From: Betaproteobacteria bacterium
GTDB taxonomy: Bacteria; Pseudomonadota; Gammaproteobacteria; Burkholderiales; Thiobacillaceae
Assembly: GCA_016873935.1 (NCBI GenBank)
Contig: VGVT01000007.1
Span: 1-64,000, forward strand
Direction: 5' to 3'
Length of the DNA stretch: 64,000 nucleotides
Below are positions 6,057 to 9,399 of the stretch, one piece after another. Position 1 is the stretch's first letter; each line of letters opens with the position of its first letter. The notes under the pieces were generated by a model. The model was not told where the DNA came from. It worked only from the letters and a program-made list of their open reading frames with translations, and searched no databases. Both the position numbers and the translations under genes were made by a program.

Positions 6057-6641
6057 TCAGCGCGGTGTCGGGCGCGCCGGAGCGTCCGGCTGCCGGTGCT
6101 CGCGGCAGATATGCCGGCTGTCGTCCTCGGACAGCGCCTCGCCGGTCAATCCACACTCGTGTTCCGCCTCGCCGGCGCGGAAATGCGCGCAATCCCGGCA
6201 TACACCGAAGGTCCTGCCGGCGCGTGATTGCTGCCAGCCGGCCAACAGCCGCGCCAGCACCGCTTCCGCCGCGTCGCGCTGGGCTTGTGGCAGCCCTTCG
6301 ATGGCCTCGGACCAGGCGCGGTCGCTGGCATCGTCCAGCAGATCGCGTCCCGCTTCCGAGAGGAACAGGCGCACCACGCGGCGATCCGCGGCGTCCGCCG
6401 CGCGCGCGATCCAGCCATGGCTTTCAATGAGCTTCAGGGTCTGCGAGACGGTGCCCTTGGTGAGCGCCAGATACTCCGCCACCGCCTGCGGCGTGTTGCT
6501 GTAGCGGTTGGCGTCGCGCAGATAACAGAGGATCGCCCATTGCACCGGCAACAGGCCGGCGGCCAGCGCCATGCCGCGCTGCTCGCTCTGCAGGGCGCGG
6601 GCGAGACTGGTGATGAGGGCATGCAATCGCGGGGTTTGCAT
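6057..6641 (-). CDS. MarR-family regulator with C-terminal Cys/His cluster
   Basis: The first 135 residues are a MarR winged helix: AILCYLRDANRYSNTPQAVAEYLALTKGTVSQTLKLIESHGWI is the recognition region and ADRRVVRLFLSEAG the wing. The ATG at 6641 is chosen over a TTG seven codons upstream. The unusual part is the tail, with Cys148, Cys151, His153, Cys163, Cys179 and His182, a spacing suited to a zinc or iron-sulfur site. It is divergent from the cytochrome P460 gene, with an inverted repeat in the 139-base gap, so it probably controls that gene and itself. A redox or nitric-oxide/hydroxylamine cue is possible but not shown. Confidence 0.85.
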   Translation of the reverse strand: MQTPRLHALITSLARALQSEQRGMALAAGLLPVQWAILCYLRDANRYSNTPQAVAEYLALTKGTVSQTLKLIESHGWIARAADAADRRVVRLFLSEAGRDLLDDASDRAWSEAIEGLPQAQRDAAEAVLARLLAGWQQSRAGRTFGVCRDCAHFRAGEAEHECGLTGEALSEDDSRHICREHRQPDAPARPTPR

Positions 6642-6666
6642 GGCGGAATGGTATCGAAACAAAACT

Positions 6667-7302: not shown

Positions 7303-7719
7303 TCAGCAAAGCGCGCAGGACTCCACCGGCAGGCCGCGCCGCAGCCAGCCCGGCCCCGCCACGCTGCCGCGCATGCCTTCCTTGACGTTGTAGACGCGGG
7401 TGAAACCCTGGCTTTGCAAATACTTCTGGGCATGCGTGGTGCGGTTGCCGGTACGGCAGATGAGGGCGATGGGGGCGTTTTTGTCGCCACCGACCTCGCG
7501 CAGGATGTACTGCGTCAGCGCATCGGGGCCGCGGTAGAAGTCGACGCGCCCGGCACCCGGCACGATGCCGGTTTCGCGCCATTCCGCCGGCGTGCGGATG
7601 TCGAAGACGCGAATGCTTCCGGCCTGCGCGGCGTCCAGGGTCTCCGGCGCGGAAAGATCGGGGGCGGCGTGTGAAAGGCCGCAAATACAGCTCAGGGCTA
7701 TCCAGGCAAGTGGTTTCAT
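7303..7719 (-). CDS. periplasmic rhodanese-like sulfurtransferase
   Basis: A 138-residue single-domain rhodanese with a signal peptide (MKPLAWIALSCICGLSHAAPD). The active-site loop is Cys88-Arg-Thr-Gly-Asn-Arg-Thr, the canonical six-residue loop plus phosphate-like cradle. VFDIRTPAEWRETGIVPGA matches the family's N-terminal block. The protein ends in CALC, giving two extra cysteines. It would transfer sulfane sulfur or act on cyanide/thiosulfate in the periplasm. The cyanase locus about 5 kb away might imply cyanide/thiocyanate metabolism, but no direct link is visible. The ATG at 7719 is used; longer versions have no signal peptide. Confidence 0.9.
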   Translation of the reverse strand: MKPLAWIALSCICGLSHAAPDLSAPETLDAAQAGSIRVFDIRTPAEWRETGIVPGAGRVDFYRGPDALTQYILREVGGDKNAPIALICRTGNRTTHAQKYLQSQGFTRVYNVKEGMRGSVAGPGWLRRGLPVESCALC

Positions 7720-7839: not shown

Positions 7840-8802
7840 TCAAGCCGCGCGCGCGGGATTTCGGGTCGTCTTCGCGATTCTGGATTCCAGCAGGTCCAGG
7901 CCAAGAACGATATCGTCGCCGAGGGGCACGAGTTTGTCGCGCAACAGGGCATCGCGCTCGCGCACCGAAAAATGGCTGCCCACGCACACCGGCACGCGCA
8001 CCTCGGCGGCCAGCCAGACCAGATCCGCCAGCACCTGCCCGGCATCCGGCGGCTCGCGCCCAGCCAGCACGATGCCCAGCGCGTAACTGCGCGCCGCCAC
8101 TTCGGCGAGCTGGCGAATGGGCAGGTTGGCACCCAGGTATACCACCCGGTAGCCACGATGCAGCGCGCCCAAGGCGAACAGCAACAGACCGATCTCGTGC
8201 GACTCGCCGGGCAGGCAGGCAAGGATCAGCGGCCGGCCCTTCGGCAATCCGGAGGTATGGTGCAGGCGCGCGCCCAGCTTGTTGCGCAGCCAGGCGCTGA
8301 AGAAATGTTCCTCGGCGATGCCCGAGGGCCGGCTGTCCCAGCGTGCGCCCAGCCGCTCCAGCACGGGAATGAGCAGCCGCCGGGTGAGCAGATCGATGGG
8401 ATAGACCGCGCAGGCCTCGTTGTAGAGGGCATCCAGGCGCTCGCTGCTGAAATCCTCCAAGGCGCGCAGGGTGTCCTCCAGATAGCCCTGCCAGGCGATG
8501 AACTCCTCGCCTACCACGGCGCGCGGCGGCGTCTGCATGGGCGCGGCCGGCGGTCCGGAAGGCGCATCCGAAGCCAGCAGGCCGGCGATTTCGCTCAGGT
8601 TCAAACCCTGGGCAACCAGTTCCCGCACCCGCCGCACGCGCAGCACCTCGGCCTGGCCGTAGAGGCGGTGCCCCGACTCCGCGCGATGCGGCCGCAACAG
8701 GCCGTGCCGGTTCTCCCAGGCACGCAGGGTGGAGGCATTCACGCCGGTGCGCTGGACCAGTTCGCGAATGGGAAACAGGGTTTGCTCGGCATGCTTCGGC
8801 AT
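7840..8802 (-). CDS. MerR-type regulator with B12-binding light-sensor domain (CarH/LitR type)
   Basis: The 320-residue protein joins a MerR helix-turn-helix (about 10-75; PIRELVQRTGVNASTLRAWENRHGLLRPHRAESGHRLY) to a helical bundle and a cobalamin-binding Rossmann domain (188-310). The lower cobalt ligand is His202 in ESHEIG, a variant of DXHXXG. Trp155 followed exactly nine residues later by Glu165-His166 reproduces the W-x9-EH signature of adenosylcobalamin photoreceptors such as CarH. Such proteins repress as dark tetramers and release DNA on illumination. The ATG at 8802 is used. AT-rich direct repeats lie in the 183-base gap to the divergent cytochrome c gene, a possible target along with its own promoter. 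Confidence 0.9.
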   Translation of the reverse strand: MPKHAEQTLFPIRELVQRTGVNASTLRAWENRHGLLRPHRAESGHRLYGQAEVLRVRRVRELVAQGLNLSEIAGLLASDAPSGPPAAPMQTPPRAVVGEEFIAWQGYLEDTLRALEDFSSERLDALYNEACAVYPIDLLTRRLLIPVLERLGARWDSRPSGIAEEHFFSAWLRNKLGARLHHTSGLPKGRPLILACLPGESHEIGLLLFALGALHRGYRVVYLGANLPIRQLAEVAARSYALGIVLAGREPPDAGQVLADLVWLAAEVRVPVCVGSHFSVRERDALLRDKLVPLGDDIVLGLDLLESRIAKTTRNPARAA

Positions 8803-8810
8803 GAAAATAT

Positions 8811-8849
8811 TATACACGCTACTTGCACATGTATAAGATTCATGTACAA
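8811..8849. promoter_or_regulatory. probable MerR/CarH operator repeats
   Basis: CATGTATAA (8828-8836) and CATGTACAA (8841-8849) are near-identical direct repeats 13 bases apart. TATACA (8811-8816) and TGTATA (8830-8835) form an inverted pair. The cluster is immediately upstream of the carH-like start in an AT-rich island, as expected for an autoregulatory operator. A separate small palindrome, TCACAG-TC-CTGTGA, lies at 8879-8892. Confidence 0.55.
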
Positions 8850-8985
8850 TTAATTCACCCAGCCCCGCTGCATTTTCTTCACAGTCCTGTGACCTGCCGA
8901 CACCGGAAGGCTTAACGCTCAATGACAACTTGCGGACCGTTACATTAGTTATTGCTTATTTTCTAACCCTGACAGGAGAACCACC

Positions 8986-9399
8986 ATGTACAAACTCGCC
9001 GCCCTCGCCCTCGTCACCACCAGCCTGCTTTCCACCGCCGCCCTGGCCGCCGGCGACCCGGTCGTCGGCAAGCAGAAGGCCACCGCCTGTATCGCCTGCC
9101 ACGGCAGCGAAAGCTACCCCGGCATCTTCTATACGCTGCAACTGGCCGGCCGCAACGCCGACAAGCTGGAAATCAAGACCATGAAGTACAAGACCGGGAA
9201 AATCCTGCATCCCATGATGAACATGGCGGTGGCCTTCTTCGACGAGAAGGAAATCCGCGACATCTCCGCCTATTACCAGTCCCTCGGCAAGCCCGCCTTC
9301 ACCTCGCCGCTGATCAAGATCAAGACCGACGCGGACGACGAGCAGGCCGCCGCCCCGATGTTCATGCCCTACGGCTACGCTCCTACCCCCGCCAGGTAA
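8986..9399 (+). CDS. small class I c-type cytochrome
   Basis: A 137-residue exported monoheme cytochrome. The signal peptide ends at LAAG, the heme site is Cys35-Ile-Ala-Cys38-His39, and the MMNMAVAFFDEKEIRDISAYYQSL segment supplies a likely methionine ligand and the C-terminal helix of class I cytochromes c. The last 30 residues form an unusual Ala/Pro/Tyr-rich tail (AAPMFMPYGYAPTPAR). A GACAGGAG ribosome site precedes the ATG. It diverges from the CarH-like gene and is followed by a clear terminator, so it is a single-gene unit that may be controlled by light/B12. It would carry electrons in the periplasm. Confidence 0.92.
   Translation: MYKLAALALVTTSLLSTAALAAGDPVVGKQKATACIACHGSESYPGIFYTLQLAGRNADKLEIKTMKYKTGKILHPMMNMAVAFFDEKEIRDISAYYQSLGKPAFTSPLIKIKTDADDEQAAAPMFMPYGYAPTPAR

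Follow-up and report, generated by a model that had tools for sequence, protein, structure and literature searches.

Gene content of the locus

The window, that is, the whole stretch of 64,000 nucleotides that was analysed, carries a gene for a MerR-type regulator with B12-binding domains and, divergent from it, a gene for a small c-type cytochrome. The two are separated by a gap of 183 bp (8803-8985). The range on which the earlier note was based, 7840-8849, comprises the regulator gene and its operator. The following features are discussed below.

7840..8802, - strand: MerR-B12 transcription regulator of the CarH/LitR kind, 320 aa, ATG at 8802; identified from Pfam, PDB relatives, AlphaFold/Foldseek and motifs
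8809..8836, - strand: inferred promoter-like pair of the regulator, TTATAC (8831-8836), 16 nt, TATAAT (8809-8814)
8811..8835, no strand: predicted operator site 1, TATACA-N13-TGTATA, covering the regulator's own promoter-like elements
8823..8850, + strand: promoter-like pair of the cytochrome gene, TTGCAC (8823-8828), 16 nt, TACAAT (8845-8850); relatives have the same geometry
8824..8848, no strand: predicted operator site 2, TGCACA-N13-TGTACA, covering the cytochrome promoter-like elements and aligned with relatives
8974..8979, + strand: AGGAGA, likely ribosome-binding site of the cytochrome gene, read directly from the sequence
8986..9399, + strand: monoheme c-type cytochrome, 137 aa, with a signal-peptide-like start; paralogue of the first gene of SHP operons

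A cytochrome P460 gene (6781-7254, + strand; PF16694, 2e-31) lies close to the locus, with genes for a MarR regulator (6057-6662, - strand) and a rhodanese (7303-7716, - strand) near it, and is not under TGTACA sites.

The regulator is a CarH/LitR-like protein

Pfam analysis of the regulator showed matches to MerR_1 (PF13411, 2.2e-17) and B12-binding_2 (PF02607, 8.3e-9), and a match to the B12-binding family PF02310 at 1.3e-4 with a score of 22.2, below the cut-off of 32.1. From these matches and the fold, the domain set of CarH is present, namely an N-terminal MerR domain, a B12 four-helix bundle and a Rossmann domain. The closest sequence relatives in the PDB were the T. thermophilus CarH/LitR entries (E 1.3e-24 to 1.7e-24). 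An AlphaFold model of the regulator, generated from 27 aligned sequences, had a mean pLDDT of 88.3, and a Foldseek search with this model returned full-length T. thermophilus CarH as the top PDB matches (E 2.3e-15), with the CarH B12 domain also among the best (TM by target about 0.8). The score against the NCBIfam CarH equivalog NF052513 was 116.8 bits, the cut-off being 400, and the regulator is therefore not CarH in the strict equivalog sense. In a phylogenetic tree it grouped with LitR-like proteins from other families of the order, apart from the second paralogue of its own genome. Its identity as a CarH/LitR-like protein is thus supported in silico.

We then analysed residues of the photoreceptor domain. 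Trp155, Asp156, Glu165-His166 and His202 were found where the earlier note had placed them, and the adenosyl-capping W-x9-EH motif (W155, E165, H166) is exact. This motif is described as defining CarH photoreceptors and as lost in the B12-independent CarA (passages of PMC9304148 and PMC8156234). The signature given for light-responsive cobalamin-binding domains in SignatureFinder (GxxW, EH, GxxH and GxxxP; a section of PMC11796333) is also complete in the regulator, as GARW155, E165-H166, GESH202 and GANLP228. Across the 27 aligned relatives, Trp155, Glu164, Glu165, His166, His202, Gly224 and Pro228 are invariant, among 24 invariant columns overall.

The earlier note had also singled out Asp156 as special, for it stands where T. 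thermophilus CarH has His132, the residue that gives the bis-His light state (part of PMC10442372). This proposal did not hold, and we ruled out that Asp156 is unusual. The residue after the Trp is Asp in the regulator and D, A, E, G, K, R, L, S or Q in the others, but His in none of the 27; within this set it is Thermus, with His132, that departs from the rule. The H132A protein was mostly tetrameric according to one group, contrary to an earlier report (part of PMC10442372). Read from the sequence, Asp156 predicts a photoproduct that would not be of the bis-His type unless another ligand substitutes, and this natural absence of a His after the Trp provides a test case for whether the CarH switch needs bis-His ligation.

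The classic B12 motif, ExHx2G-x41-SxV/T-x22-27-GG (a passage of PMC8156234), is present in the regulator in its first part only (E200xH202xxG205). The cobalamin-tail part is changed to Ala247 for Ser, Arg249 for Val/Thr and Gly275-Ser276 for Gly-Gly, a degeneracy that the earlier note had missed. Applied as a strict pattern the motif was uninformative, failing in 27 of 27 proteins, even in relatives with the normal Ser and Gly-Gly, and the tail residues were instead compared column by column in the alignment. Position 247 was not Ser in 13 of the 27 rows. Gly-Ser at 275-276 was seen in six rows (the window, G013, G027, G002, G035 and G028), all with a tie to a cytochrome c, and Gly-Gly was kept by four relatives of the secreted-protein type described below. 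The coincidence of Gly-Ser with the cytochrome tie (residues 275-276, approximately 7975-7980 of the window) may reflect ancestry alone.

The degenerate tail motif is the main sequence evidence against plain CarH membership and, because of it, we regard B12 binding by the regulator as likely but not certain. If binding had been lost, the protein could act as a B12-independent repressor like CarA, or as a partner-controlled LitR of class II. The tail changes at Ala247, Arg249 and Gly275-Ser276 would fit such a loss, as would the PF02310 score below threshold and the homologue at locus L035, which has no PF02310 match at E 0.001. However, the residues on the adenosyl side and the axial residue are all kept under apparent constraint (W155, E165, H166, H202 and P228 are invariant), and CarA, unlike the regulator, has lost the Trp (a passage of PMC9304148). 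We consider the loss of B12 binding improbable, the least probable of the alternatives weighed here, and favour the reading that the regulator probably uses vitamin B12 for light sensing.

Predicted operator sites in the divergent gap

The direct repeats reported in the earlier note are present as CATGTATAA at 8828-8836 and CATGTACAA at 8841-8849, and form parts of a larger feature consisting of two overlapping, interleaved pairs of half-sites with N13 spacing (sites 1 and 2). The repeat occurs a third time, over the start codon of the cytochrome gene (8985-8993), in a copy that the sister genome G013 does not keep. Within the 64-kb window, a degenerate pattern of the pair (TRYRCA-N13-TGYRYA) matched sites 1 and 2 only. 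The whole genome of 2.7 Mb contained four matches, of which the remaining two were on contigs C2 and C24, and the reversed control pattern gave 0 matches. When the 183-bp gap was subjected to 5000 dinucleotide shuffles, six of the products had at least one pair and none had two.

Both -35-like hexamers match the consensus weakly, that of the cytochrome gene in 3 of 6 positions. A consensus promoter scanner reported neither promoter-like pair and one other promoter-like match instead. Geometry and conservation are therefore the basis of the assignment. When 12 loci were aligned, they shared an element, ATTGTACA...ACTTGTACATGTATAAGTTTTATGTATAAT, oriented to the divergent target gene. On the regulator side, the -10-like hexamer ends 6 nt before the ATG with no Shine-Dalgarno sequence, and a TAYAAT hexamer lies 6-7 nt ahead of the ATG in 11 of 13 regulator orthologues, with no Shine-Dalgarno sequence in the last 16 nt. 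The regulator mRNA is probably leaderless (8802-8814 in the window, and the orthologous loci). A close counterpart, T(G/A)TACA-N12-TGTA(C/T)A, is the sequence that the class II LitR proteins PplR1 and PmlR2 bind over promoters induced by light (part of PMC9758184).

The cytochrome belongs to the SHP/DHC operon family

The monoheme cytochrome proposed in the earlier note is real, with one CxxCH motif and with cytochromes c554, c4 and c552 as PDB relatives (best E 2.1e-7). A Pfam scan of the protein gave no model above its cut-off. Of the 117 family genomes, 111 have a homologue, which in many of them opens an operon of cytochrome c, cytochrome b561 (PF01292), SHP/DUF1924 (PF09086) and DHC (PF09626). 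This membership of the SHP/DHC operon family had escaped the earlier note. All 21 DUF1924 copies compared, from the 12 genomes with the regulator, have an Asn in front of the Cys; it aligns with the SHP ligand of 1dw0 and is not the His of cytochrome c''. We take this Asn position of 1dw0 to be the sixth haem ligand of SHP.

An operon with an SHP bearing this Asn, cytochrome b and DHC is not what the window locus holds, since only the cytochrome c paralogue is found there. All three occur in the complete operon of the same genome on contig C84, in which no operator site was found. Five loci that are linked to the regulator or carry the site do contain SHP, in G027, G028 and G029 as cytochrome c-SHP-DHC without cytochrome b, and in G035 and G040 with cytochrome b. 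The present genome, G013 and G002 have the regulator-linked cytochrome alone, and a complete operon elsewhere without a site.

SHP is the sole c-type haem protein known to bind oxygen, and the regulators published for its operons are of three sensor-kinase types plus PrrBA, as given in passages of PMC2909971. The word "light" is absent from the main text of that paper.

Two further features of these loci were observed. Upstream regions of cytochromes in SHP operons without a TGTACA pair (L051-L071 and L095) often contain TTGACA followed by a AATATTAGAAAATTAG-like element, which suggests a different regulator for those cytochromes. A gene with the motif LIIAHGSRR, presumably a CbiX-like chelatase, recurs near the regulator or near a site-bearing SHP operon (L036, 750-1124; L042, 6831-7277; L090, 2-391), and a cobalt or tetrapyrrole link is possible.

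The regulator-cytochrome tie in related genomes

A clear orthologue of the regulator (E 1e-50 or better) was found in 12 of the 117 family genomes searched. In six of these, the gene divergent from the regulator encodes a cytochrome c of the same family as that in the window (the present genome, G013, G027, G002, G035 and G029; in the last, a contig end carries the start of the regulator gene, identified by eye), and in four it encodes a secreted protein (G015, G016, G031 and G032). The regulator faces a MoaB-like gene in G028 and a methyltransferase-domain gene in G040, where a photolyase gene lies downstream. The secreted protein (loci L036, L037, L038 and L040), which is conserved and replaces the cytochrome behind the same operator, has TNNLIDSTESVTNN near its N-terminus; two of the four members were scanned, and neither showed a Pfam match.

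We searched 21 relatives (about 69 Mb) with a strict form of the operator pattern, TRTACA-N13-TGTAYA. This resulted in nine sites in eight genomes, and the reversed control gave one, in G015. Six of the nine are at promoters of MerR-B12 or cytochrome c/SHP genes, and three lie inside ORFs (G011, G015 and G107). The site is in the regulator-cytochrome gap in G013 and G027, and in the gap between the regulator and the secreted-protein gene in G031. G040 (1.2 Mb) has two strict sites, one at the regulator promoter and the other upstream of a cytochrome c-cytochrome b-SHP-DHC operon on another contig, and the sole strict site of G028 (3.5 Mb) is just upstream of a cytochrome c-SHP-DHC operon, the regulator again being on another contig. 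In G028 a short stretch resembling the regulator start persists beside the operon, and its site may therefore descend from an old linkage; G040 has no such trace. No N13 pair was found in G002, G029 and G035, yet the cytochrome adjoins the regulator there. G015, G016, G031 and G032 have neither this adjacency nor a site-bearing operon, and their SHP operons are without the site.

Upstream of the best cytochrome c, a degenerate pair was present in 5 of the 12 regulator-bearing genomes and in 0 of the 16 others (Fisher p 0.008, which ignores shared ancestry); the counts for a promoter-type pattern were 6 of 12 and 0 of 16, respectively (p 0.0025, with the pattern drawn from the same loci and shared ancestry again ignored). 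The present genome and G013 are sisters, and G027 and G028 are close. The 28 genomes are those whose loci, among 30 cytochrome loci retrieved, matched at 1e-20; the two weakest, L077 and L078, in genomes without the regulator, were left out, and neither has a pair. A single TGTACA just before the cytochrome start, seen in several relatives, was not counted, as it also occurs in the regulator-less G017, G019, G011 and G030.

The sites might serve the expression of the regulator only, with the adjacent cytochrome as a bystander. Half-sites do lie at the regulator's own -10 element in nearly all relatives, and the neighbour has changed to the unrelated secreted-protein gene in 4 of 12 genomes and to the MoaB-like gene in G028. 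A site serving the regulator alone, however, should be missing from unlinked cytochromes, whereas strict sites are found at the unlinked cytochrome c-SHP operons of G040 and G028; in addition, the conserved promoter-like element is oriented to the target gene, and site 2 covers the cytochrome side in the window. We therefore judge the bystander reading to be quite unlikely. The regulatory link between regulator and cytochrome appears well supported for a computation, and the main interpretation, that of a light-responsive switch acting on the cytochrome, is strengthened by comparative genomics.

The second paralogue, photolyase and homologues in the order

The genome encodes a second MerR-B12 protein (L089, on G000:C43), which is about 30% identical to the regulator and falls outside the window clade in the tree. 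It lies in a LitR-like cluster with CFA-synthase-like, short-chain dehydrogenase, DUF1365 and glutathione-peroxidase genes, and no TGTACA-type pair was found in its 3.7-kb locus. The photolyase gene of this genome is on another contig. The usual LitR-type genes are thus not at the window locus, in agreement with the earlier note, but sit with the second paralogue and on the photolyase contig. Photolyase was rejected as a target in this genome, having no paired site and only one TGCACA, inside the gene.

Among 399 genomes of the order, nine from outside the family have homologues of the regulator (1e-30 or better, 37-45% identity), and at least seven of these adjoin a CFA-synthase-like or UfaM-like gene, as judged by eye and by similarity to a gene tested in this study. 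None of the nine loci has a cytochrome c neighbour or a degenerate N13 pair; as far as the search reached, the tie to the cytochrome is therefore limited to the family. The window clade thus resembles a lineage-specific branch whose target is new. A supply of adenosylcobalamin in this genome is hinted at by a PF02572 fragment, which scores just over the cut-off and lies where a contig ends.

A proposed light-responsive switch

Taken together, we consider a B12-based, light-responsive CarH/LitR-like repressor of its own gene and of the divergent cytochrome gene to be the best explanation of the locus, with a slightly better than even chance of being correct. In the dark, and with adenosylcobalamin bound, the regulator would occupy both interleaved sites (8811-8848) and block its own, probably leaderless, promoter together with that of the divergent gene for the periplasmic cytochrome c. 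On illumination the Co-C bond would break, the regulator would leave the DNA, and the cytochrome would be made. Repression is the direction we infer because the sites lie on promoter elements, and dark repression with release in the light is the best-supported reading by analogy with CarH (part of PMC8156234). Since the cytochrome gene stands by itself and is a paralogue of the one that opens the SHP operon, the light-controlled function would probably be electron delivery within or beside the chain of cytochrome c, cytochrome b561, SHP and DHC.

A light response of the regulator is likely, but the signal that matters in the cell could instead be B12 status or oxygen and redox state, with the regulator binding adenosylcobalamin and controlling the cytochrome all the same. 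The operons in question are tied to a haem protein that binds oxygen, the published SHP regulators are redox or two-component systems (part of PMC2909971), the photoproducts of T. thermophilus CarH vary with O2 and with the cobalt redox state (part of PMC10442372), and nothing indicates that the host organism meets light. On the other hand, the adenosyl-capping Wx9EH is kept in all 27 aligned relatives, and in two relatives at a greater distance, G040 and L042 (a Thiotrichales locus), a photolyase gene lies directly downstream of the regulator. We consider a signal other than light unlikely.

For the light-responsive repressor, the shared site and the recurring pairing suggest light control of a little-understood electron-transfer chain. 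The proposal of the earlier note that light controls the cytochrome thus gains from a CarH/LitR-like protein and from an operator tied to cytochrome c even when unlinked (in G040, and in G028 after an apparent loss of linkage), but loses the special role of Asp156. A more far-reaching version, which we put forward tentatively and hold to be rather doubtful, would add a B12 photoreceptor to the regulators of the SHP/DHC chain as their fourth type. Light would then induce an oxygen-binding c-type haem protein and its cytochromes in non-phototrophic betaproteobacteria, and the photoproduct would differ owing to the missing upper-axial His and the altered tail pocket.

Most of what is known about CarH/LitR switches concerns genes for carotenoids, photolyase and related photoprotection. 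We found no paper tying CarH/LitR to SHP or a cytochrome c among the openly licensed PMC papers searched. If a B12 light sensor controls SHP-type operons and their cytochromes, light would be a concrete inducing condition for SHP, whose physiological role is unsettled, and the B12 light response would extend beyond pigment and DNA repair to electron transfer.

Comparison with known systems

The closest known system is CarH, or class I LitR, of T. thermophilus. It shares with the regulator the MerR DNA-binding domain, the four-helix bundle, the Rossmann B12 fold, Wx9EH and ExHxxG with the axial His, and it is the best structural match. The two are only about 26% identical, and the regulator has Asp where the Thermus protein has His after the Trp, and Ala/Arg and Gly-Ser where the latter has SxV/T and Gly-Gly in the tail motif. 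CarH acts on carotenoid genes through sites that are 11-bp direct repeats, whereas the predicted target of the regulator is a cytochrome and its predicted sites are palindromic with N13 spacing.

AerR, an antirepressor, is not known to have a DNA-binding domain like that of the MerR-B12 regulator. The AerR/CrtJ pair of Rhodobacter capsulatus nevertheless offers a B12 photoreceptor circuit that reaches respiratory cytochrome genes, through CrtJ (part of PMC5362033). Its targets differ from those of the regulator. A reported precedent for including the promoter of a cytochrome c gene in a regulon of photo-oxidative stress is cycA P3, a target of sigma-E in R. sphaeroides.

The class II LitR proteins of Pseudomonas, PplR1 and PmlR2, resemble the regulator in their T(G/A)TACA...TGTA(C/T)A half-sites over light-induced promoters, with a spacing of 12 as against 13 (part of PMC9758184). 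They reportedly have one of the two B12 domains and a LOV partner, while the regulator has both domains. The SHP operons of proteobacteria are like the site-bearing or regulator-linked operons of the relatives in containing SHP (PF09086) and DHC (PF09626), with cytochrome b561 also in G035 and G040, and the window has their leading cytochrome only. In print, such operons are linked to sensor kinases and PrrBA (part of PMC2909971), in contrast to the MerR-B12 protein found here.
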